Shown one piece after another: positions 6,167 to 21,587 of a stretch of 21,587 nt of DNA. Both the position numbers and the translations under genes were made by a program. The notes beneath the pieces are model-generated. The model was not told the origin of the DNA. It worked only from the letters and a program-made list of their open reading frames with translations, and made no database searches. Each line of letters opens with the position of its first letter. The stretch's first letter is position 1. The DNA lies in assembly GCF_001557115.1 (NCBI RefSeq), contig NZ_LSKQ01000047.1, positions 1 to 21,587 of the forward strand. Reading direction: 5' to 3'. This stretch comes from Erythrobacter sp. CCH5-A1 (GTDB taxonomy: Bacteria > Pseudomonadota > Alphaproteobacteria > Sphingomonadales > Sphingomonadaceae).

Positions 6167-6257
6167 TGGCGGCAAGTCCTCCCGATCAGGAGATTACGCA
6201 AAGGCACGGCGCGCACCAACCCCCGTTTGGCGGGGCGAGCGCACTACGAACCTCATA

Positions 6258-6670
6258 TCAGGGGGCCATCATAAGCCGGGTTCTGTCTCCCCGGACGGTA
6301 TCCTTGCGGACCAGCGCCGGGGTGGCAGCCATTCATCTGGGCCGTCGGTTGCCCGGCGGCTCTAGCAGCCAACCCGGGTCTCTCGGCGCGAAACACGCCT
6401 GCCCTCCTTGCGGAAAGGCGCGAGACCCCTATTCGGCCTTGCTCCGGGTGGGGTTTGCCATGCGGTTGCCGTTGCCGGCCCCCCGGTGCGCTCTTGCCGC
6501 ACCCTTTCACCCTTGCCTGTGCTTCCGAAGAAGCCATCGGCGGTTTGCTCTCTGTGGCACTTTCCCTTGCCCTGCCCGAAGGCAGGACCGGCGGGCGTTA
6601 CCCGCCACCCTTGTTTCGTGGAGCCCGGACTTTCCTCGCACGTAGCGCGGCTGCCTCAGGCCCCCTGACC
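6258..6670 (-). ncRNA. rnpB: RNase P RNA (M1 RNA)
   Basis: The catalytic RNA of RNase P, which matures tRNA 5' ends. On the minus strand the 5' signature GAGGAAAGTCCGGGCTCC lies at about 6637-6620, followed by the conserved GGGTAACGCCC-type loop. Near the 3' end is the universal ACAGAACCCGGCTTATG (6286-6270). The terminal helix P1 is visible as TCAGGGGGCC (6668-6659) pairing with GGCCCCCTGA (6267-6258), ten perfect pairs. These define the ends to within a few bases. The length of about 413 nt fits an alphaproteobacterial type A RNA. The gene is downstream of the amiD operon but has its own promoter. Confidence 0.96.
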
Positions 6671-6708: not shown

Positions 6709-7428
6709 TTAGCGCGTCCGCCCCTGATCGCGGTCGAGCAGCAATTGCCACAGGATCGCGGCGATCTCGCCATCGGGAATGCCTGTGATGCGTTCGGGCC
6801 GCCAGCGGCGCTCGAAGGCCTCGACCGCCTTGGCCTGATCGGTGATGTCGTAGCCGAACCGTTCGAGCGCGAGGAAGAAGCTGCCCCAGTTGTGGAAGGG
6901 GTTGCCAGCCGTGAGGCACTCAGGCCGCGGCAGGCACAGCTTGTGCTGCGCCAGCCGGTCCCACGGGAAGAGCTCGCCCGGATCGACCTTGCGCATCGGG
7001 GCGACATCGGAGTGGCCGACGACATTGGCGCGCGGGATGTCGTATTGCTTCACGAGTCGGCCGAGCAGCGGGATCAGCGCGTCGATCTGCGCCTCGGCAA
7101 ACCCGCGGTAGCCCAATGCGTGGCCGGGATGGTCGAGCTCGATCCCGATGCTCGCCGAGTTCACGTCGGGAATGCCGCGCCAGTAGCTCGCGCCCGCGTG
7201 CCATGCGCGGCGGTCTTCCGGCACGAGGCGGATCACCTCGCCACCTTCCGTGATGCAGTAATGCGCGCTGACGCTGGCCTCGGGATCGCACATCCGCGCG
7301 AGTGCCGCCTCGACCGGCTTCATCTCGGTGTAGTGGATGACCACCATGCTGATCGGCAGCGACCGCTCGCCATGGTTGGGCGAGAGCACCTCGCGGTGGA
7401 CCAGCTCGTCTTCAGTGCCCCCCGACAC
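6709..7428 (-). CDS. N-acetylmuramoyl-L-alanine amidase, AmiD/AmpD family (amidase_2)
   Basis: A zinc hydrolase cutting the bond between N-acetylmuramic acid and the stem peptide, of 239 residues. The zinc ligands His32 (VVIHYTEM), His139 (VVGHSDVAP) and Asp149 (KVDPGELFPW) and the catalytic Glu97 (SIGIELDHPG) are all present. The block from SIGIEL through GELFPW resembles AmiD more than the shorter AmpD. E. coli AmiD is an outer-membrane lipoprotein, whereas this protein has no signal peptide, so a cytoplasmic role in wall recycling is the better guess. The C-terminal ~70 residues form a small helical domain as in AmiD. The start is GTG at 7428, with AGGA upstream. It follows chpT by 10 nt on the same strand, so it is the last gene of that operon. 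Confidence 0.85.
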   Translation of the reverse strand: MSGGTEDELVHREVLSPNHGERSLPISMVVIHYTEMKPVEAALARMCDPEASVSAHYCITEGGEVIRLVPEDRRAWHAGASYWRGIPDVNSASIGIELDHPGHALGYRGFAEAQIDALIPLLGRLVKQYDIPRANVVGHSDVAPMRKVDPGELFPWDRLAQHKLCLPRPECLTAGNPFHNWGSFFLALERFGYDITDQAKAVEAFERRWRPERITGIPDGEIAAILWQLLLDRDQGRTR

Positions 7429-7438
7429 GTCCGCTGTC

Positions 7439-8092
7439 CTAGCCGATCATGCCTTCAGGCTCGGGCAGCACCGCGCCGAGCACCAGCGCGCCATCGCCGA
7501 GCTTGTACTGGAGGCCGCCCTCCATCTCCTCGGCGAGCACCGCGATCATGTGCGCGGCGGCGGTGCGGGAGGTGATTTCGTTGGGGGCCAGCTCCCCCTG
7601 AAGCGCGCGGCCGATGGTCTCGTCGAAAGCGATGCGCTCGGCGCGCGCGCGGGCGACGATCTCGACCGCGCCGTCGCGCCGCTCGGCCCCGATGTCGAGC
7701 GTGCCGCCGCGCACCAGTGCATCCAGCGCAATCTGCGCGAGGTTCAAGAGCACCTTGACCGCGGGCTTGGGCAGGCTCGGCTCGGCAATCGCCCAGTTGA
7801 CCTCGACCTTCTTGGCATCGCCCGCCAGCGCGTCGATCACGGCCTTGGCCTCGTCGACCGGGATCGCCTCGCCGAAGCCCCCGGCGGCGCCGAAAGCGAG
7901 GCGGAAGAACTTCAGCTTGTCGGTGCTGATCTTGGCCGACTGCTCGAGCAGGTCGACCACCTGCGCGCGCATCTGCGGGTCCTTCTCCTCGGCGAGCAGC
8001 TCCAGCCCGTTGGCGAGCGCGCCGACCGGCGAGAGCATGTCGTGGCACAGGCGCGAGCACAGCATCGCGGCGAGATCGGTCTGGGAAATCAT
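7439..8092 (-). CDS. chpT: Histidine phosphotransferase ChpT
   Basis: In Caulobacter, ChpT carries phosphate from the hybrid kinase CckA to CtrA and to CpdR, which controls ClpXP-dependent proteolysis. The 217-residue protein opens with the diagnostic helix LCSRLCHDMLSPVGALANG, where His17 is the phosphorylated residue. A degenerate ATPase-like domain follows, ending in the typical GLQYKLGDGALVLGAVLP strands. AGGAAAG about 8 nt upstream supports the ATG at 8092. It lies 10 nt downstream of the M67 peptidase gene and 10 nt upstream of the amidase gene, all on the minus strand, so the three are probably one transcript. The ClpX and ClpP it regulates indirectly are also in this window. Confidence 0.92.
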   Translation of the reverse strand: MISQTDLAAMLCSRLCHDMLSPVGALANGLELLAEEKDPQMRAQVVDLLEQSAKISTDKLKFFRLAFGAAGGFGEAIPVDEAKAVIDALAGDAKKVEVNWAIAEPSLPKPAVKVLLNLAQIALDALVRGGTLDIGAERRDGAVEIVARARAERIAFDETIGRALQGELAPNEITSRTAAAHMIAVLAEEMEGGLQYKLGDGALVLGAVLPEPEGMIG

Positions 8093-8517: not shown

Positions 8518-9471
8518 ATGTCCGAGACCGAAATCATCACCGGCACGATCCCCGCCGCCGCGCGCCTCGACAAGGCGCTGGCCGAGGCGACCGGGCTCAG
8601 CCGCGCGCGGGTGCAGGGGTTGATCGAGGAGGGCCGCGTCGATGTTGGCGGCAAGACGGCGACCTCCGCCTCGATGAAGGTCGCCGCCGATACCCCGTTC
8701 CGCATCATCCTTGCCGCCGCCATGCCCGCTGCCGCGCTCCCCGAGGATATCCCGCTCACCATCGCCTTCGAGGACCAGCATCTCGTCGTGGTCGACAAGC
8801 CTGCAGGGATGGTCGTCCACCCGGCGGTGGGCAATATCACCGGCACGCTGGTCAACGCGCTGCTGCACCATTGCCGCGGCCAGCTCAGCGGCATCAACGG
8901 GGTCGCGCGGCCCGGGATCGTCCACCGGATCGACAAGGATACTTCCGGGCTGCTGGTGATCGCCAAGTCCGATGCCGCGCATGAAGGGCTGGCCGCGCAG
9001 TTCGCCGCGCACTCTGTCCACCGCCGCTACATCGCGGTGTGCGCCGGGCACCCCTCCCCTACCGAGGGCACGGTCGACGCGCGCATCGGCCGGTCGGACG
9101 CGGACCGAAAGAAAATGACGGTGCTCCCCAACAATTCCTCGCGCGGGAAAACGGCGATCACCCATTACAAGGTCGTCCAGCGGCTCGATCACGCCGCACA
9201 GATCGAATGCCGGCTCGAAACCGGGCGCACGCACCAGGTGCGCGTTCACTGTGCGTCAATCGGCCATCCGCTACTGGGAGACCCTGCCTATGGCCGCACA
9301 CCCAAACAGCTTCGCCCCGTTCTCGAGCGACTCGGTTTCGCCCGTCAGGCGCTGCATGCGGCAGAACTGGGCTTCCAGCACCCGCTCACCGGCGAAATGG
9401 TCCTATTCCGGAGCAATCTGCCGCAAGACATGGCGGAACTGATCGACGAACTAAGCCGTTGTGATCGATGA
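8518..9471 (+). CDS. rluD: RluA/RluD-family 23S rRNA pseudouridine synthase
   Basis: Isomerises specific uridines of 23S rRNA to pseudouridine. The 317 residues comprise an N-terminal S4 RNA-binding domain (about 15-62, ARLDKALAEATGLSRARVQ) and a catalytic domain. The nucleophilic Asp139 lies in the family signature HRIDKDTSGLLVIAK, and the typical LETGRTHQVRVH motif follows. Asp139 is also the catalytic position in E. coli RluD, and the architecture fits RluD better than S4-less RluA, but the target positions are an inference. I chose ATG 8518, where homology to S4 begins shortly after. It has no visible Shine-Dalgarno sequence and only 16 nt separate it from the divergent gene, so translation may be nearly leaderless. 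Confidence 0.88.
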   Translation: MSETEIITGTIPAAARLDKALAEATGLSRARVQGLIEEGRVDVGGKTATSASMKVAADTPFRIILAAAMPAAALPEDIPLTIAFEDQHLVVVDKPAGMVVHPAVGNITGTLVNALLHHCRGQLSGINGVARPGIVHRIDKDTSGLLVIAKSDAAHEGLAAQFAAHSVHRRYIAVCAGHPSPTEGTVDARIGRSDADRKKMTVLPNNSSRGKTAITHYKVVQRLDHAAQIECRLETGRTHQVRVHCASIGHPLLGDPAYGRTPKQLRPVLERLGFARQALHAAELGFQHPLTGEMVLFRSNLPQDMAELIDELSRCDR

Positions 9472-9585
9472 AACGCGCATACATCTGACCGAAATTCGCG
9501 TATGAACGTAACCCGTGGCCCAGCGCGACGGATGCCCATCAGGGGTCCCCGCCAAGCGGTCGACACCAGAAAGGTTAGGTAACCA

Positions 9586-10491
9586 GTGACCAAGTCAAAA
9601 GCCGCGTCGATGCCGGCGCTGAGCGGTGAGCAGAGCCTCAACCGCTATCTCGCCGAAATCCGCAAGTTTCCGGTCCTCACGGCCGAGCAGGAATACATGC
9701 TCGCCAAGCGCTATCAGGAGCACGAGGACCCCGAAGCCGCCGCCCAGCTCGTCTCCAGCCACCTGCGGCTCGTCGCGAAGATCGCGATGGGTTACCGCGG
9801 CTATGGCCTGCCCGTCGCCGACCTGATCTCGGAAGGCAATGTCGGCCTGATGCAGGGCGTCAAGAAGTTCGAACCCGATCGCGGCTTCCGCCTCGCGACT
9901 TACGCGATGTGGTGGATCAAGGCCTCGATCCAGGAATATATCCTGCGTTCGTGGAGCCTCGTGAAGATGGGCACCACCGCGGCGCAGAAGAAGCTGTTCT
10001 TCAACCTGCGCCGGATGAAGAAGAACCTCGACGCCTACGAGGACAGCGACCTGCGCCCCGACGATCTCACCAAGATCGCGACCGACCTCGGCGTGCCCGA
10101 GGCCGAAGTGGTCAACATGAACCGCCGGATGATGATGGGCGGGGATGCCTCGCTCAACGTCTCCCTGCGCGGGGCCGAGGAAGGCTCGGGCGAATGGCAG
10201 GACTGGCTGGCGGATGATCGCCCGCTGCAGGACGAAACCGTCGCCGAGAGCCAGGAAGCGCAGATGCGCATGGAGATGCTGTCCGAAGCGATGGGCAGCC
10301 TGAACGAGCGCGAGCGCCACATCCTCACCGAACGCCGCCTGACCGAGAAGCCCCAGACGCTCGAAGAGCTGTCGCAGGCCTACGACGTCAGCCGCGAACG
10401 CATCCGCCAGATCGAGGTGCGCGCCTTCGAGAAGCTCCAAAAGGCGATGCAGCGGATCGCGGGCGAGCGGCTGCTGCCCGGGATGGCGTAA
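9586..10491 (+). CDS. rpoH: RNA polymerase sigma-32 factor RpoH
   Basis: Heat-shock sigma factor directing transcription of chaperones and proteases. The 301 residues show sigma regions 1.2-2.4 from about residue 15, with the core-binding and -10 recognition block DLISEGNVGLMQGVKKF and TYAMWWIKASIQEYI. The RpoH box QKKLFFNLR at 134-142 separates RpoH from other group 2/3 sigma factors. The C-terminal helix-turn-helix is EELSQAYDVSRERIRQIE. Length and motifs are complete. The start is GTG at 9586 with AAAGGTTAGG upstream. The 114-nt upstream gap holds its promoter, which I could not identify with confidence. A strong terminator follows. A candidate target promoter lies upstream of clpP in this window. 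Alphaproteobacteria often carry more than one rpoH; which paralogue this is cannot be told. Confidence 0.95.
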   Translation: MTKSKAASMPALSGEQSLNRYLAEIRKFPVLTAEQEYMLAKRYQEHEDPEAAAQLVSSHLRLVAKIAMGYRGYGLPVADLISEGNVGLMQGVKKFEPDRGFRLATYAMWWIKASIQEYILRSWSLVKMGTTAAQKKLFFNLRRMKKNLDAYEDSDLRPDDLTKIATDLGVPEAEVVNMNRRMMMGGDASLNVSLRGAEEGSGEWQDWLADDRPLQDETVAESQEAQMRMEMLSEAMGSLNERERHILTERRLTEKPQTLEELSQAYDVSRERIRQIEVRAFEKLQKAMQRIAGERLLPGMA

Positions 10492-13295: not shown

Positions 13296-14249
13296 ATGGC
13301 TCACACGCACGCCCATAACCACCATGATCATGCCCACGGGCACGCGCATGGCCATGGTCATGGCGGCCATTCCCATGCCCCTGCCGACTTCGGCCGCGCC
13401 TTCCTGATCGGAATCGTGCTCAACACCGGCTTCGTGCTGCTCGAGGCCTCGGCCGGGCTGATCTACGGCTCGATGGCGCTGATCGCGGATGCGGGCCACA
13501 ATCTGTCCGATGTGCTCGCCCTCGCGCTCGCGTGGATTGCAAGCATCGCCGCCAGGCAGCCCGCCTCGGGGCGCTTCACCTATGGATACAAGAGCTCGAC
13601 CATCCTCGCCGCCCTCGCCAATGCGCTGCTGCTGGCGGTGGCGATCGGGGCGATCCTGTTCGAGACGCTGCACCGGATCATGAACCCCGTCGAGCCGCAG
13701 GGCCTCGCCATGGCGGCGGTGGCGGGCGTCGGCATCGCGATCAACGCCTTCACGGCCTTCCTGTTCATGAAGGGACAGGGCGATCTCAACATCCGTGGCG
13801 CCTATCTCCACATGGCGGCCGATGCGCTGGTGTCGCTCGGTGTGGTGGTGGCGGGGCTGGCGATTGTCCTCACCGGCTGGGCGTGGCTCGATCCGGCGGT
13901 GAGCATCGTGATCCTCGGCGTCATCGCCTGGGGCACCTGGGGCCTTGCGCGCGATTCCGTGGCGATGGGCCTGCTCGCCGCGCCTGCGGGGATCGAACTT
14001 GGCGCGGTCAGGCAGCATCTTGCCGGGTTCGAGGGCGTGGCCGCGGTCCACGATCTCCACGTCTGGCCCATGTCGACCACCGAGATCGCGCTGACCGCGC
14101 ATCTCGTCATGCCCGCCCGCCCCGCGACCGACAGTTTCCTGGGCGCGGTCGCCGCCAGCCTCGAGACGCGCTTCGGCGTTACCCACGCGACGATCCAGAT
14201 CGAGACCGGCGATGACCCTTGCGCGCACCCCTGCGGAGCCGATTGCTGA
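13296..14249 (+). CDS. His-rich cation diffusion facilitator (CDF) metal exporter
   Basis: An inner-membrane divalent cation/proton antiporter, most likely for Zn2+ (CzcD/ZitB-like), of 317 residues. The N-terminal 27 residues contain 13 histidines, a probable metal sensor or chelating tail. Six membrane helices follow, with both halves of the transport site present as HxxxD: His68-Asp72 (AGHNLSD) and His172-Asp176 (HMAADAL). The cytoplasmic C-terminal domain starts near residue 230 and has the typical VHDLHVWPMS motif. The last residues are Cys-rich (PCAHPCGADC). Its TGA stop overlaps the ATG of the ECF sigma factor by one base, which implies translational coupling. That ties metal export to the sigma/anti-sigma pair. 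The ribosome site is weak. Confidence 0.9.
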   Translation: MAHTHAHNHHDHAHGHAHGHGHGGHSHAPADFGRAFLIGIVLNTGFVLLEASAGLIYGSMALIADAGHNLSDVLALALAWIASIAARQPASGRFTYGYKSSTILAALANALLLAVAIGAILFETLHRIMNPVEPQGLAMAAVAGVGIAINAFTAFLFMKGQGDLNIRGAYLHMAADALVSLGVVVAGLAIVLTGWAWLDPAVSIVILGVIAWGTWGLARDSVAMGLLAAPAGIELGAVRQHLAGFEGVAAVHDLHVWPMSTTEIALTAHLVMPARPATDSFLGAVAASLETRFGVTHATIQIETGDDPCAHPCGADC

Positions 14250-14836
14250 TGGCCGCGCGCCCCCGCCATTCCTCGGACGAAGCGCGCGAGGCGCTGCGCG
14301 ATGCGATGGCGCGGCTCGCTGCCGGGGATCAGTCCGCGCTCGAGGAAATCTATCGTGCCACCCGGGTGAAGCTCTTCGGCATTTGCTTGCGTATCTTGGC
14401 AGATCGAAAGGAAGCCGAGGACGCCTTGCAGGACGTCTATGTCAATCTCTGGCAGCGGGCCGACCGCTATGACCCGTCCCGCGCGAGCCCCATCGCGTGG
14501 CTGGCGGCGTTCGCGCGCAACCGCGCGATCGACCGGCTGCGCACGGGCAAGGTGCGCGGCGGGGCGGTTCCGGTCGAAGAAGCCGCGCCGCTCCCCGATG
14601 AAAACCCGCTGGCCGACGCGCTTCTGATCGATGCCGAGCAGACCGCGCAGATCCACAAGTGCCTGGGCGCACTGGACGCGCGCACGCAGGGCCATATCCG
14701 CGCGGCCTTCTTCGAAGGCAAGACCTATGCCCAGCTCGCCGAGGGGGCCGATGTGCCGCTCGGCACGATGAAGAGCTGGATCCGCCGCGGCCTCCAGCGC
14801 CTGCGCGCCTGTCTCGAAGCGAGCGAGGCGGCATGA
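14249..14836 (+). CDS. ECF RNA polymerase sigma factor (SigK/ECF19-like)
   Basis: A 195-residue extracytoplasmic-function sigma factor with only regions 2 and 4. Region 2 runs from about residue 38 to 98 (LFGICLRILADRKEAEDALQ, then ASPIAWLAAFARNRAIDRLR). Region 4 spans about 138-190, with the helix-turn-helix TYAQLAEGADVPLGTMKSWI. The RASPIAWL/NRAIDRLR segment resembles Mycobacterium SigK. Its start codon overlaps the CDF stop (TGATG), and its own stop overlaps the anti-sigma start (ATGA), so all three are translationally coupled. An in-frame ATG at 14219 lies inside the CDF gene and has no homology support. The probable targets are the two fasciclin genes just downstream, which share an upstream motif. 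Naming it sigK would be premature. Confidence 0.9.
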   Translation: MAARPRHSSDEAREALRDAMARLAAGDQSALEEIYRATRVKLFGICLRILADRKEAEDALQDVYVNLWQRADRYDPSRASPIAWLAAFARNRAIDRLRTGKVRGGAVPVEEAAPLPDENPLADALLIDAEQTAQIHKCLGALDARTQGHIRAAFFEGKTYAQLAEGADVPLGTMKSWIRRGLQRLRACLEASEAA

Positions 14837-15612
14837 GCGGCGTGGACGAGAACACTCCCGAAGTGACCCGCGACGATCCGATGATCGCCGCCGAGTGGGC
14901 ATTGGGCCTGCTTGAGGGCGAGGAGCTGCTCGCCGCGCGCGGCAAATATGCGACCGATCCGGCCTTCGCCTGGCGCAAGGAATGGTGGGACGGCTGGTTC
15001 GCCCCGCTGTCCGACGCCATGCCGGGGGCAGAGCCGGGCGAGCATGTGTGGGACGGCATCGCCGCACGCGTGGCGGCCGCGCAGGCGGCGGCGGGTGCCC
15101 CGGCGGGCGAGGTTGCGGCAGGTTCGAATGTCGTGGCGCTCGAGGCCCGCGTGCGGCTGTGGCAGCGGGTCGCCGGCTTCTCCTCGATCGCCGCTGCAGC
15201 GCTGCTGGCATGGGTCGCGCTCACGCCGTCGCAAAGCCCTGTCGCGCCGCAGCCTCCGCAGATTGCGGCCGCGGCCCCGCTGGTCGCCACCGTTCCCATC
15301 GGCGAGACCGGCCTCCGGCTCGATGTCACCTACATCCCCGAGAGCGAACGCATGGTCGTCGCCGCGATCGGCCTTACCCCTGACGGCGTCCACGACCACG
15401 AGCTGTGGCTGGTGCCCGCCGATGGCACGGCGCTGCAATCGCTTGGCGTGGTCAAGCCCGGTGCGGTGCGCAGCATGACGCTGCCGGCCGCGGCGGTCGC
15501 CAAGCTGGGTGACGGGGCGAGCCTCGTGCTCACCCGCGAGCCGATCGGCGGTAAGCCCGAGGGCAAGGACGCCGGGCCGGTGGTCGCCAAGGGCGCTTTC
15601 AGCCGGGTCTGA
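14833..15612 (+). CDS. RskA-type transmembrane anti-sigma factor
   Basis: A 259-residue single-pass membrane protein that should hold the upstream sigma factor inactive. The cytoplasmic N-terminal domain (about 15-75, AAEWALGLLEGEE) has the anti-sigma fold seen in RskA proteins but no HxxxCxxC zinc motif. One helix (about 112-131, VAGFSSIAAAALLAWVAL) leads to a periplasmic RskA C-terminal domain (PF10099) with the hallmark ELWLVPADG, QSLGVV and LTREPIGGKPEGKDAGPVV segments. In mycobacteria RskA is cleaved by regulated proteolysis to free SigK; no protease gene is beside this one. Its ATG lies in the sigma stop (ATGA overlap), which would keep the two proteins near equal amounts. Confidence 0.9.
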   Translation: MSGVDENTPEVTRDDPMIAAEWALGLLEGEELLAARGKYATDPAFAWRKEWWDGWFAPLSDAMPGAEPGEHVWDGIAARVAAAQAAAGAPAGEVAAGSNVVALEARVRLWQRVAGFSSIAAAALLAWVALTPSQSPVAPQPPQIAAAAPLVATVPIGETGLRLDVTYIPESERMVVAAIGLTPDGVHDHELWLVPADGTALQSLGVVKPGAVRSMTLPAAAVAKLGDGASLVLTREPIGGKPEGKDAGPVVAKGAFSRV

Positions 15613-15672
15613 CAGCCGCATCGCTTCGGCGCGCGCAAACGGCAATTCATCCGCAATATCACCAAGGCGCTC

Positions 15673-15700
15673 CATCCGCCGCGCCCTGTCCTCCGTAGCT
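15673..15700 (+). promoter_or_regulatory. Candidate ECF-sigma promoter of fasciclin gene 1
   Basis: CATCCGCC (15673-15680) and CGTAGCT (15694-15700) are separated by 13 nt. The same pair at the same spacing lies upstream of the second fasciclin gene, and in both the CGTA box is exactly 63 nt before the start codon. The upstream box here reads CCATCC in full, which as I recall is the -35 element reported for mycobacterial SigK. Confidence 0.6.
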
Positions 15701-15706
15701 GACCGT

Positions 15707-15725
15707 GCAAGCGCCCCCTGCTTGC
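15707..15725 (+). promoter_or_regulatory. Leader hairpin of fasciclin gene 1
   Basis: GCAAGC (15707-15712) and GCTTGC (15720-15725) form a 6-bp stem with a 7-nt loop, starting 13 nt after the CGTA box, so near the 5' end of the predicted mRNA. The second fasciclin gene has the same stem at the same place, with a different loop sequence. It could be an mRNA stabiliser or an operator. Confidence 0.5.
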
Positions 15726-15756
15726 CAACGTGACACCTATCGACGGAGAACCCCAC

Positions 15757-16344
15757 GTGACCCCCAAGAACACTCTGATCGCGCTCGCCGCCGCGCTGGC
15801 TGCGACTGCCGGTTTCACCGCCGCCCCGGCGCTGGCCGATCACCACAAGGAGACGAAGGCGGACGTGCCCACCGTCGGCGGCGCGCCGATGTATCCGACC
15901 AAGACCATCGTCGAGAATGCCGTCAATTCGGCCGATCACACCACGCTGGTCGCCGCGGTCAAGGCCGCGGGCCTTGTCGAAGCGCTCTCGGGCCCCGGCC
16001 CCTTCACTGTCTTCGCCCCGACCAACGCCGCCTTCGGCAAGCTGCCCGCCGGCACGGTCGAGACGCTGGTCAAGCCCGAGAACAAGGCGACCCTCACCGC
16101 GATCCTCACCTACCACGTCGTCCCGGGCAAGGTTGCTGCGGGCGAGCTCATCGAACTGATCAAGAAGGGTGGCGGCAAGGCCGAACTCAAGACCCTGGGT
16201 GGCGGCATCCTGACCGCGCGGGTGGTCGGCGGCAAGGTCGTGCTGACCGACGCAAAGGGCGGCACCGCGACCGTCACTCAGGCCGACGTGTTCCAGTCCA
16301 ACGGCGTGATCCACGTGACCGACAGCGTCTCGCTGCCGGGCTGA
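15757..16344 (+). CDS. Secreted fasciclin (FAS1) domain protein 1
   Basis: A 195-residue exported protein consisting of a signal peptide (about 1-27, hydrophobic IALAAALAATAGF, ending in ALA) and one FAS1 domain. The domain shows both conserved blocks: H1 as FTVFAPTNAAFGKLP and H2-like NGVIHVTDSV, with the intervening ILTYHVVPGKV. FAS1 domains mediate adhesion in many bacteria and eukaryotes; mycobacterial MPT70 and MPT83 are the closest functional analogues by context. I chose GTG 15757 because GGAGA lies 7 nt upstream; a GTG at 15730 would put nine extra residues before the signal. It is 144 nt after the anti-sigma gene with its own candidate promoter and terminator, so it is a separate unit, probably controlled by the adjacent sigma factor. 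Confidence 0.9.
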   Translation: MTPKNTLIALAAALAATAGFTAAPALADHHKETKADVPTVGGAPMYPTKTIVENAVNSADHTTLVAAVKAAGLVEALSGPGPFTVFAPTNAAFGKLPAGTVETLVKPENKATLTAILTYHVVPGKVAAGELIELIKKGGGKAELKTLGGGILTARVVGGKVVLTDAKGGTATVTQADVFQSNGVIHVTDSVSLPG

Positions 16345-16415
16345 TCCGCCGCAAGCTTACGGCGCGGGCCTGCGCTCCCCATTCCCCCACCCCGCGCGGG
16401 CCAGCGCTTCTCCGA

Positions 16416-16457
16416 CCCCGTCCGGCCTTCCTCCAGGGCCGGGCGGGGTTTTCTTTT
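16416..16457 (+). terminator. Intrinsic terminator of fasciclin gene 1
   Basis: CCCCGTCCGGCC (16416-16427) pairs with GGCCGGGCGGGG (16437-16448) with one G-U pair, followed by TTTTCTTTT. The same stem, with the same G-U position, recurs after the second fasciclin gene. Confidence 0.92.
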
Positions 16458-16506
16458 GCCTCCATTATGAAATCGCAGGCCTCGAACAAAATATTTTCAC
16501 AGACGT

Positions 16507-16534
16507 CATCCGCCCCTGAACACTCCGCGTAACT
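16507..16534 (+). promoter_or_regulatory. Candidate ECF-sigma promoter of fasciclin gene 2
   Basis: CATCCGCC (16507-16514) and CGTAACT (16528-16534), 13 nt apart, repeat the arrangement seen upstream of fasciclin gene 1. The 13-nt spacer differs almost throughout from the first copy, which argues for selection on the boxes and not simply recent duplication. The start codon is again 63 nt downstream of CGTA. Confidence 0.6.
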
Positions 16535-16540
16535 AAAAAT

Positions 16541-16558
16541 GCAAGCGGGAGGGCTTGC
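16541..16558 (+). promoter_or_regulatory. Leader hairpin of fasciclin gene 2
   Basis: GCAAGC (16541-16546) and GCTTGC (16553-16558) form the same 6-bp stem as in fasciclin gene 1, here with a 6-nt loop, and again start 13 nt after the CGTA box. The ribosome site AAGGAG lies well downstream of the stem, so direct masking of translation is unlikely. Confidence 0.5.
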
Positions 16559-16590
16559 TACTGTGTTCAACCAAATAAGGAGATGATCTT

Positions 16591-17148
16591 ATGAAGTCGA
16601 AATTTGCCACTCTCGCCCTCGTCGCTGCTGCCATTGGCACCACCACCGGGTTTGCGTCCCTCCCTGTTCTTGCCCACCCCCAGCGCGCCGCCGCGTCTGC
16701 CGCGCCGAATATCGTCGAGGTCGCGATGAGCACCGGGGTCCACAACACGCTGGTCGCCGCCGTGAAGGCTGCCGGGCTGGTCGACACGCTCTCGAGCCCC
16801 GGCCCCTTCACCGTCTTCGCGCCGACCGACACCGCCTTTGCGAAGCTCCCCGATGGCACCGTCGCCAATCTCGTCAAGCCTGCCAACAAGGGCACGCTGA
16901 CCGAAATTCTCACCTACCACGCAGTCGCCGGAAAGGTGACGAGCCGCGATCTCGTCGCGCTCATCAAGCAGGGCCACGGCGAAGCGGTGATCGAGACCCT
17001 CGCGGGCGGTGAGCTGACCGCGCGGCTGGCGGGCGACAAGATCGTCATCACCGACGAAAAGGGCCGCGCCACCGCCGTGACCCAGGCCGACGTCAAGACG
17101 TCGAACGGCGTGGTCCACGTGACCGACGGGGTGTTCCTGCCCGCCTGA
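16591..17148 (+). CDS. Secreted fasciclin (FAS1) domain protein 2
   Basis: A 185-residue paralogue of the preceding protein: signal peptide (about 1-28, MKSKFATLALVAAAIG, ending VLA) and a single FAS1 domain from about residue 38. Conserved blocks are HNTLVAAVKAAGLVDTLS, FTVFAPTDTAFAKLP, ILTYHAVAGKV and NGVVHVTDGVFLP. The two differ mainly in the leader, the linker after it and the middle of the domain. An excellent AAGGAG ribosome site precedes the ATG, stronger than that of the first copy, which starts at GTG, so this copy may be the more abundant product. It has its own candidate promoter and terminator. The arrangement implies an old tandem duplication of a whole transcription unit. Confidence 0.9.
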   Translation: MKSKFATLALVAAAIGTTTGFASLPVLAHPQRAAASAAPNIVEVAMSTGVHNTLVAAVKAAGLVDTLSSPGPFTVFAPTDTAFAKLPDGTVANLVKPANKGTLTEILTYHAVAGKVTSRDLVALIKQGHGEAVIETLAGGELTARLAGDKIVITDEKGRATAVTQADVKTSNGVVHVTDGVFLPA

Positions 17149-17219
17149 TTGCCCTGACAGGCAGGCGCTGCCTTCCGCCTTCCCCATCCCCAACCTTGGG
17201 GGGCAGCCCTGCTTGCGCC

Positions 17220-17256
17220 CCCCGTCCGGCCTTCCTCTTGGGCCGGGCGGGGTTTT
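17220..17256 (+). terminator. Intrinsic terminator of fasciclin gene 2
   Basis: CCCCGTCCGGCC (17220-17231) and GGCCGGGCGGGG (17241-17252) form a 12-bp stem followed by TTTTC. The stem, loop start (TTCCTC) and T-run are nearly identical to the terminator of fasciclin gene 1. On the minus strand no U-run follows, so it should act for the plus strand only. Confidence 0.9.
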
Positions 17257-17282
17257 CTATGTATTCTTTGGCGGAGGTTCAG

Positions 17283-20025: not shown

Positions 20026-21528
20026 ATGACCTATCGCACATTCGGCCGATCGGCCCTCACCCTGCTCCTTGCCACCACCGCTTCTGCCGCGCTTGCCAAC
20101 GAGCCGCGGACGGCCGCCTTTGACGCCGAGCGGCAGATCGAGGCCATCCGCACCCTCGATGACGCGGGCCCGCAGCTGAATGCGGTTATCGTTTATGATG
20201 CCGATGCGGCGACCAAGGCCGGGGCGGAGGCTGTCCTCGGCACGCAGCTTCAGGGCCGCACCGTGCTGGTGAAGGACAATGTCGAGACCGCCGAGTGGCC
20301 GACCACCGCAGGCAGCCTCGCGCTCGCCGACAACGCCACGGGCCGCGATGCGCCGATGATCGCACTGCTGCGCAAGAACGGCGGCGTGGTGCTGGGCAAG
20401 ACCAACCTCAGCGAATGGGCCAACATCCGTTCGAACAATTCGACCAGCGGGTGGAGCGGGGTCGGCGGGCTGACCAGGAACCCCTACGCCATCGACCGCA
20501 ATTCCTGCGGCTCCTCCAGCGGCAGCGGCGCGGCGATTGCGGCGGGCTTTGCCTGGGCCGCGATCGGGACCGAGACCAACGGCTCGATCACCTGCCCGGC
20601 GAGCATCAACGGCCTCGTCGGCTTCAAGCCCTCGGTCGGGATCGTCAGCCGCACCCATGTGGTGCCGATCTCTTCCACGCAGGACACCGCCGGGCCGATG
20701 ACGAAAACGGTGTATGATGCCGCGCTGCTGCTCACCGCCATCGCGGGGCCGGATCAGGCCGACCCGGTGACGCTGGAGGCGAAGCGCGTGACCGACTACA
20801 CCGCCGGGCTCGACACCGCCTCGCTCAAGGGCGTGCGCATCGGCGTGCTGCGCGGTGCGGTGGGCGATCGCCCCGACGTGAAAGCACTGTTCGAGACCGC
20901 GCTCGCCGACCTCACCCGTGCGGGCGCGGTGCTGGTCGATGTTGAATACGAAGCGCCCGGCGCGCTGTGGGAAGCCTCGCTCCCGGTGCTCATGTTCGAG
21001 CTGCGCGTCGAGATGGACAAGTATCTGAGCACCCGCCCCGGCACTGCAGGCCCGCGCAGCCTCGCCGATGTGGTCGCCTTCAACAAGGAGCACGCCGCCG
21101 AGGAGATGCGCTGGTTCAACCAGGACCTGTTCGAGCAGGCACTGACCACCACCGATGCCGAGGCCTATGCGAAGAACCTCGCGACGCTGCGCCGCCTGAC
21201 CAGGGCCGAGGGGATCGACAAGCTGCTGGCCGACAACAAGGTGACCTTCCTCGTCGCGCCCACTCAGGGGCCCGCATGGAGCACCGACCTCGTCAACGGC
21301 GACAATTTCAACGGGCGGATCGGCGCTGGCTACCTCGCCGCGATCGCGGGCTATCCGCATATCACCGTGCCGATGGGCGGGGTCGAAGGCCTGCCGATCG
21401 GCTTCAGCATCATGGGCGCCCAGTGGCAGGACCACGATGTGCTGAAGGCTGGCGCGGTCTACGAGAAGGTGCGGAGCGCATCGCTGCCCGTGCCGACTTT
21501 CGAGCGGTGGAAACCGGCAGGGGAGTAG
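20026..21528 (+). CDS. Secreted amidase-signature family enzyme (peptide amidase-like)
   Basis: A 500-residue Ser-Ser-Lys hydrolase of the amidase signature family. The leader (about 1-24, SALTLLLATTASAALA) is a Sec signal peptide, so the enzyme works in the periplasm. The catalytic triad is readable: Lys83 (VLVKDNVE), cis-Ser163 (CGSSSGSGAA) and nucleophile Ser187 (GTETNGSITCPAS). The GTETNGSI motif, in place of the usual GTDTGGSI, resembles the peptide amidase (Pam) branch, which deamidates peptide C-termini; that assignment is an inference. The ATG at 20026 has only a close AGG upstream, and an in-frame GTG at 20008 is possible. It diverges from clpP. The last 14 or so codons and the stop lie in the fold-back repeat at the contig end, but the left arm reads as normal protein, so the gene is complete. 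Confidence 0.9.
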   Translation: MTYRTFGRSALTLLLATTASAALANEPRTAAFDAERQIEAIRTLDDAGPQLNAVIVYDADAATKAGAEAVLGTQLQGRTVLVKDNVETAEWPTTAGSLALADNATGRDAPMIALLRKNGGVVLGKTNLSEWANIRSNNSTSGWSGVGGLTRNPYAIDRNSCGSSSGSGAAIAAGFAWAAIGTETNGSITCPASINGLVGFKPSVGIVSRTHVVPISSTQDTAGPMTKTVYDAALLLTAIAGPDQADPVTLEAKRVTDYTAGLDTASLKGVRIGVLRGAVGDRPDVKALFETALADLTRAGAVLVDVEYEAPGALWEASLPVLMFELRVEMDKYLSTRPGTAGPRSLADVVAFNKEHAAEEMRWFNQDLFEQALTTTDAEAYAKNLATLRRLTRAEGIDKLLADNKVTFLVAPTQGPAWSTDLVNGDNFNGRIGAGYLAAIAGYPHITVPMGGVEGLPIGFSIMGAQWQDHDVLKAGAVYEKVRSASLPVPTFERWKPAGE

Positions 21529-21587
21529 GCGGGCGCGTAGCCTGATACTCCCCTGCCGGTTTCCACCGCTCGAAAGTCGGCACGGGC
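21486..21587. repeat. Fold-back inverted repeat at right contig end
   Basis: Bases 21486-21527 (end of the amidase gene) are repeated exactly in inverted orientation at 21546-21587, with an 18-nt loop. A 42-bp perfect stem reaching into coding sequence and stopping at the last base of the window is best explained as a chimeric fold-back at the contig end, like the one at the other end. Confidence 0.85.

Follow-up and report, generated by a model that had tools for sequence, protein, structure and literature searches.

A SigK/RskA-like circuit with two tandem fasciclin outputs, proposed for an Erythrobacter locus

Does the extracytoplasmic function (ECF) sigma factor encoded on contig NZ_LSKQ01000047.1 of Erythrobacter sp. 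CCH5-A1 control the two fasciclin (FAS1) genes that follow it, and if so, through which promoter and to what end? The window analysed here, that is, the whole stretch of 21,587 nucleotides, carries in this order a transglycosylase gene, a CDF-family cation efflux transporter, the ECF sigma factor, an RskA-type anti-sigma factor and the genes FAS1-A and FAS1-B, with a clpX-like gene (assigned by eye) on the opposite strand beyond them. A sequence-only reading of the window had described the last five of the ordered genes as one island, and the Pfam matches agree with it. Namely, on the forward strand, as are all features below unless stated otherwise, lie the CDF transporter with its His-rich N-terminus (13296..14249; Cation_efflux 9.6e-36, ZT_dimer 3.1e-12, TIGR01297 above its cut-off), the 195-residue sigma factor with an ATG start (14249..14836; Sigma70_r2 4.1e-16 and r4), the 259-residue anti-sigma factor (14833..15612; RskA_C 6e-14, 52.9 bits against a cut-off of 29.4), the 195-residue FAS1-A with a GTG start (15757..16344; Fasciclin 3.1e-31) and the 185-residue FAS1-B with an ATG start (16591..17148; Fasciclin 1e-31). 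What is more, the gene overlaps noted in that reading, TGATG (14247-14251) and ATGA (14833-14836), can be read directly in the sequence. We propose, with a probability of about 0.82 for the explanation as a whole, that the locus is a SigK/RskA-like circuit with two tandem FAS1 outputs, in which both FAS1 genes are probably direct targets of the sigma factor, since a conserved element with fixed spacing precedes them and is linked to rskA.

The element in question, CATCC-N16-CGTA[A/G]CT, was found by reading the upstream regions side by side. FAS1-A is preceded by CATCC (-35), N16 and CGTAGCT (-10) at 15673..15700, and FAS1-B by CATCC, N16 and CGTAACT at 16507..16534. At a tolerance of one mismatch the window has no further site; both of these are exact, and both lie 84 bp upstream of a FAS1 start codon. 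Two window matches at this stringency also turn up in 14 of 100 shuffles, so that their number alone is not unusual, and the case for FAS1 promoters is built on the exactness of both sites, their identical 84-bp distance and their conservation in relatives. As for the latter, a sigma-factor scan of genome contigs gave 53 loci, of which 23 carry FAS1, making 26 FAS1 genes over 24 loci with the two of the window included, and these loci reach into Sphingomonas, Sphingobium, Sphingopyxis, Pseudolabrys, Paraburkholderia and Pseudomonas oryzihabitans; some of the scanned loci, L003 and L006 among them, are cut short by the contig end, and the absence of a gene says little there. When the spacer was varied from 6 to 26 over the 26 FAS1 upstream regions, N16 gave 21 sites, N15 one and every other length none, and 0.9% of 1400 dinucleotide-shuffled upstream regions had a site within one mismatch. 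The N16 form occurs 19 more times elsewhere in the FAS1-bearing loci, several times before other plausible targets. Taken over 58 sites, the consensus is GCATCCG for the -35 part, with the leading G present in 54 and the closing G in 50, and CGTA[A/G/T]CT for the -10 part.

Is the element linked to the anti-sigma gene in relatives? Our survey set comprised 149 genomes from the family of genome G001, drawn from a larger group, with RskA_C present in 72 and FAS1 in 103 of them. Among the 150 FAS1 matches listed, which also bound the next two counts, a FAS1 gene lies within 3 kb of at least 46 of the 78 rskA genes, in line with the co-occurrence of sigma factor, RskA and FAS1 that the sequence-only reading would predict. 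Forty-three of these 46 are downstream on the same strand and three are convergent, and for 42 of the 43 at most 480 bp separate the rskA and FAS1 domain matches. All 46 linked genes were read for the element, which is exact in 29 and within one mismatch in 37, whereas the 22 unlinked FAS1 genes, chosen for comparison by FAS1 score, give 0 and 3, respectively (Fisher 1.5e-7 for exact sites and 1.8e-7 for at most one mismatch). We prefer this table to an earlier one (a site in 58 of 70 linked and in 5 of 24 unlinked genes), which mixes in loci fetched by the motif. Exact elements also stand before two FAS1 genes that lie more than 1.5 Mb from the rskA gene of their own genome (L102 and L151), both selected for having a site. 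The assignment of the FAS1 genes as sigma targets, which had been drawn from adjacency and a shared motif, thus gains from a fixed-spacing, rskA-linked element in relatives and would now apply to both genes.

The sigma and anti-sigma factors themselves resemble SigK and RskA, as had been suggested. In particular, the top solved-structure match of the sigma factor is SigK (4nqw, 3.5e-26), and solved RpoE (2q1z) comes second. Its Cys138 and Cys188 (numbering counted by hand) align with Cys133 and Cys183 of SigK, at a spacing of 50 in both proteins, and both cysteines are kept in 52 of the 53 aligned sigma factors, that of the window included; locus L053 has no sigma match and is therefore outside both the alignment and the sigma tree. 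In that tree, the closest sigma factor is that of Erythrobacter sanguineus (L004), likewise with two FAS1 genes, and the close relatives of the locus are of Porphyrobacter and Erythrobacter. FAS1-linked sigma factors require three changes on the tree, while those linked to the YadA-head genes discussed below form one group (97/91); long branches make the deeper joins unsure, and L003 and L006 were excluded as contig-end loci. The anti-sigma factor yields RskA_C alone in a Pfam scan (E at most 0.001), has its hydropathy maximum at residues 113-131, and is modelled by AlphaFold2, from 36 hand-picked sequences, with four helices in its N-terminal part, one long hydrophobic helix at 97-130 and a beta-rich C-terminal domain; an anti-sigma factor of a SigK/RskA circuit would be expected to have a class I anti-sigma domain at its N-terminus and a single transmembrane helix. 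As a side observation, the top Foldseek matches of this model are Cu,Zn-superoxide-dismutase-like beta sandwiches (E 0.014, not significant).

That each FAS1 gene has control signals of its own holds as well, a promoter-like element, a leader inverted repeat and a terminator-like stem-loop being present at both. The stem-loop scan places terminator-like structures with a T run 3' of FAS1-A (16414..16450) and 3' of FAS1-B (17220..17252), the former having a copy 804 bp downstream at 95% identity; over the region scanned there are six such stem-loops, where shuffles average 2.2. FAS1-A and FAS1-B are 56% identical as proteins and their control regions share one architecture, and, because coding and terminator repeats keep a single 804-bp register, the FAS1-B unit probably arose by tandem duplication. 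Both proteins begin with a hydrophobic segment resembling a Sec signal peptide (for FAS1-A judged by eye and hydropathy). Among solved structures, FAS1-A is closest to TGF-beta-induced protein (5e-35), with 1w7d fifth (1e-33) and MPT70 at 7.7e-13, while the top relative of FAS1-B is 1w7d (3.8e-34).

How might such a circuit work? The RskA-type protein, predicted to span the membrane, would keep the sigma factor at the inner membrane until an envelope or redox signal sets it free; the freed sigma factor would then take RNA polymerase to promoters of the type CATCC-N16-CGTA[A/G/T]CT, which in this window stand before the two tandem FAS1 genes; the secreted products would work on the cell surface, with adhesion or aggregation as their probable role, and a hairpin near each FAS1 mRNA start may protect the mRNA or tune its translation. 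In mycobacteria, the SigK regulon controls major FAS1 antigens. Its stimuli are called obscure (PMC9861118). We infer the sigma/anti-sigma steps by homology with the RskA/SigK mechanism, in which the N-terminal part of mycobacterial RskA inhibits SigK, RskA can also activate, the Yersinia pair behaves alike and the two cysteines of SigK matter (PMC7509140). With a sphingomonad that follows this logic and offers a defined element and two clean reporter targets, the signal, the promoter and the role of FAS1 could be tested in a non-pathogen.

What the output is for can be approached through the rskA genes that have other neighbours. For 32 rskA genes no FAS1 gene is listed nearby, and 20 of their downstream stretches were taken, five of them chosen for a site after rskA. 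A YadA-head protein, i.e. a trimeric autotransporter-like adhesin, follows rskA in eight of the 20 and in L034, L042, L045 and L046 of the sigma scan, which gives 12 sister loci; all 12 have the YadA head by Pfam, six have the YadA anchor, and in all 12 the element precedes the gene at 0-1 mismatch. No YadA-head protein was seen in those checked of the remaining 12 stretches, two of which (L184 and L186) have an exact site and no clear target. Two genomes (G018 and G089) hold a YadA-head locus as well as an rskA-FAS1 copy, so that the two forms can coexist. Since FAS1 and YadA-head proteins occupy the same slot, the output of the circuit is, by analogy, probably surface attachment. Separately, a short open reading frame (ORF) after rskA in L192 resembles, by eye, the start of a YadA-head gene and is possibly a remnant.

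The element is not confined to adhesins. In Caulobacter, Brevundimonas and Caballeronia it stands before genes for lipid enzymes, namely cyclopropane-synthase or amine-oxidase-like genes (seven sites in L017, L018, L020, L039, L041 and L080, with three of the proteins assigned by Pfam and the rest by similarity to these three). The mycobacterial sigK locus holds a comparable, cyclopropane-type enzyme set, and we claim no novelty for these targets. Further sites appear in three close relatives, genomes of the Porphyrobacter type (L060, L062 and L074), for example before an RND-type efflux gene assigned by eye. In five Brevundimonas-type loci (L019, L023, L027, L028 and L029; about 9258-9600), a site of the same type lies 3' of rskA, followed by some 280 nt in which no clear ORF stands out and a GC-rich inverted repeat can be seen by eye, and then by an ORF that we take to be DUF2793-like. 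A sigma-dependent small RNA is possible there, on sequence grounds; Rfam gave no match for it.

The strongest rival holds that the circuit answers mainly to photo-oxidative stress, i.e. to singlet oxygen, with FAS1 being protective rather than adhesive. The fasciclin RSP_1409 is an RpoE target in Rhodobacter sphaeroides. The literature reports that this protein goes up under photo-oxidative stress (PMC7074977), that FAS1 antigens of Mycobacterium kansasii go up in light (PMC9861118) and that flocculation of A. brasilense is said to be fasciclin-mediated under RpoE-ChrR (cited in PMC10949492); the sites before cyclopropane-synthase genes in Caulobacter and Brevundimonas, and the carotenoid-binding FAS1 structures among the weaker solved relatives of FAS1-A (1.8e-12), point in the same direction. 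Yet the fasciclin gene of an Icelandic phototroph was not expressed in the light series of PMC10949492, and a YadA-head adhesin in the FAS1 slot suggests the surface and not quenching. On balance the odds lean somewhat against this rival as the main function. That said, the two readings are compatible, as aggregation can itself answer photo-oxidative stress, and a photo-oxidative signal is a reasonable guess by analogy with the systems in PMC7074977, PMC9861118 and the citation in PMC10949492.

A further feature is the inverted repeat that directly follows the -10 in most FAS1 leaders. In the window, the FAS1-A leader has a 7-bp stem with a loop of 5 (15707..15725), which folds alone, keeps its position in relatives and is predicted to lie close to the transcript 5' end, and the FAS1-B leader has a 6-bp stem with a loop of 6 (16541..16558); judging from the usual distance to a -10 element, FAS1 transcripts probably start near the hairpin. 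Folding energies of the leaders lie weakly below those of shuffles (mean z -1.1; 12 of 25 below -1), and for this reason we used a position-specific stem test, in which G-T pairs counted and a loop length of 3-9 was allowed. With stems required to have 5 bp or more and to begin 2-8 nt 3' of the element, 41 of the 58 leaders have one, where 300 shuffles give 9.3 on average and 16 at most. In a set thinned to identities under 60%, 19 of 30 leaders have one; here the shuffles average 4.7 and peak at 11, and 0 of 300 come up to 19. At 6 bp or more, 33 of 58 leaders have the stem at 2-8 nt, compared with 7, 2 and 1 in later intervals, a control that partly favours the first interval because the later ones keep less of the 45 nt. 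Of the 12 YadA leaders, 9 have a stem of 5 bp or more (reached by 1 of 300 shuffles) and 8 have one of 6 bp or more (0 of 300), while lipid-enzyme leaders, few in number, have 3 of 7 at 5 bp (reached by 37 of 300 shuffles) and 0 of 7 at 6 bp.

Could the repeat be the DNA operator of a dimeric repressor instead of an RNA hairpin? Just 3' of the promoter, the arms in Porphyrobacter and Erythrobacter are indeed mostly one sequence, GCAAGC/GCTTGC or close to it. However, the arms vary by group (CACCTC/GAGGTG and GCTTCC/GGAAGC are others), and across families their sequences change while pairing and position stay, with G-T (G-U) pairs and varied loops, which fits RNA better; YadA leaders carry different arms again. 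An operator therefore seems unlikely to us. Read as an RNA hairpin, the leader would be a further layer of the circuit. Neither the sphingomonad SigK/FAS1 circuit nor its YadA-head variant nor the leader hairpin appeared in the open-licence PMC literature searched, though no search was aimed at the hairpin or leader. One may go further and view the circuit in sphingomonads and their relatives as a surface-adhesin switch with exchangeable FAS1 or YadA-head output, in which adhesin but not lipid-enzyme mRNAs share a pairing-conserved 5' hairpin, an RNA-level layer that would select secreted products; for this extended proposal we regard the scales as evenly poised.

Is the CDF exporter part of the circuit, as the sequence-only reading had it? 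Here our results part from that reading. The best site within 300 nt upstream of the CDF gene has 3 mismatches in the window, and 3-4 when the window and each of the 15 Erythrobacteraceae-type loci (L001-L015) are considered; the CDF match is present in all 15 of these loci and in none of the other 38 of the sigma scan, some of which are cut by contig ends; and in the Citromicrobium loci L013 and L014 a polysaccharide-deacetylase-like gene (by eye, about 7198-7995) separates CDF from sigma. These observations led us to reject the CDF gene as a regulon member, and it is probably a lineage-specific neighbour, an operon passenger or accessory, rather than a sigma target. A metal-response island, in which metal stress would trigger a joint response of CDF, sigma, anti-sigma and FAS1, could appeal to the overlap of the CDF stop with the sigma start and to the CDF match adjoining sigma in 15 of 15 loci, but the same poor sites, the 38 of 53 loci lacking CDF and the intervening gene speak against it, as does the position of CDF within 100 nt of a transglycosylase match in 10 of the 15 loci, and we find it highly doubtful.

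Several observations weigh against the proposed SigK/RskA-like circuit. Autoregulation is usual for ECF operons, and it is not seen here, as no element lies upstream of the CDF or sigma gene in the window, nor of the CDF gene in L001-L015; L050 has a site directly before its sigma gene, so that autoregulation by the same element may occur elsewhere. The sigma factor scores 142.4 bits on the NCBIfam SigK model (NF007228), below the cut-off of 226, and is for this reason called SigK-like and not SigK. The anti-sigma model, at a mean pLDDT of 85, has a pTM of 0.46, and Foldseek found no match for it at E of at most 0.001. The leader stem fails the ungapped test in 11 of the 30 diverse leaders, and 9 of the 46 rskA-linked FAS1 genes have no site within one mismatch. 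Of the 149 surveyed genomes, 62 have the exact pattern, 45 of them with RskA_C and 17 without; among the 99 exact sites listed, 24 have a listed FAS1 domain at most 450 bp downstream and 28 lie within 1 kb of rskA; and a reversed control pattern gives about 20 matches by hand count. As the exact pattern also occurs without RskA_C or FAS1 nearby, the pattern alone does not predict a regulon. Still, a chance neighbourhood, with constitutive FAS1 genes merely adjoining sigma and rskA, would account for the nine site-less genes but hardly for the spacer peak at N16, the contrast between linked and unlinked FAS1 genes or the same-strand downstream FAS1 at 43 of 78 rskA genes (42 within 480 bp, among the matches listed), and can be dismissed as very improbable.

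Elsewhere in the window, a bacterial RNase P class A RNA lies on the minus strand (6256-6666, 252 bits) and was the sole match of an Rfam scan of the window and six loci. Upstream of the island there is a sigma-70-family gene (9586-10491; RpoH-like by eye; Pfam Sigma70_r1_2, r2 and r4), matched in 14 of the 15 Erythrobacteraceae-type loci. Both ends of the window are self-complementary (arms 1-35/72-106 at 97% and 21486-21527/21546-21587 at 100%); these fold-back ends (1-106 and 21486-21587) look like a contig-end artefact, and no reliance should be placed on the outermost 100 bases.

How does the locus compare with known systems? It shares with the Mycobacterium SigK-RskA-MPT70/MPT83 system and the Yersinia cassette a SigK-type ECF sigma factor with both cysteines, an adjoining RskA_C anti-sigma factor and FAS1 genes as predicted targets with a sigma-linked promoter and, with the latter, occurrence in a Gram-negative. 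The sequence-only reading had implied that such logic was new to Gram-negatives. This does not stand, as PMC7509140 already describes a sigK-rskA-mpt83 cassette in Yersinia enterocolitica, with a SigK site upstream of mpt83 that was used in reporter tests, so that FAS1 under SigK/RskA in a Gram-negative is known. The order here differs, being CDF-sigma-rskA-FAS1-FAS1 with no site before the sigma gene, and each FAS1 gene forms a self-contained unit that has its own leader hairpin and terminator; unlike SigK proper, the sigma factor reaches only 142.4 of 226 bits on the NCBIfam model.

Turning to alphaproteobacteria, ChrR is a cupin-domain zinc anti-sigma factor. The zinc need of ChrR is given in PMC7406223, and the RpoE-ChrR system (ECF11) of R. 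sphaeroides is likewise a stress response that raises a FAS1 protein, so that a photo-oxidative response with a FAS1 gene is already known from Rhodobacter, an alphaproteobacterium (PMC7074977); its RpoE is also the second-best structural relative of our sigma factor. The locus departs from RpoE-ChrR in that Pfam (E at most 0.001) found no ChrR-type zinc cupin in the anti-sigma factor, which instead has a hydrophobic segment and RskA_C as its one Pfam match; in R. capsulatus, the RpoE/ChrR pair is reported to be closer to SigK/RskA. On the side of the outputs, the FAS1 proteins are single-domain like the solved BETA-IG-H3/FASCICLIN structures 1w7d/1w7e, the best match of FAS1-B and the fifth of FAS1-A. 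The YadA-head adhesins, unlike FAS1, are unrelated proteins absent from this part of the window, yet they share with it the slot after rskA, the element (12 of 12) and the leader stem of at least 5 bp (9 of 12), and this exchange suggests that the FAS1 output, too, concerns surface attachment.

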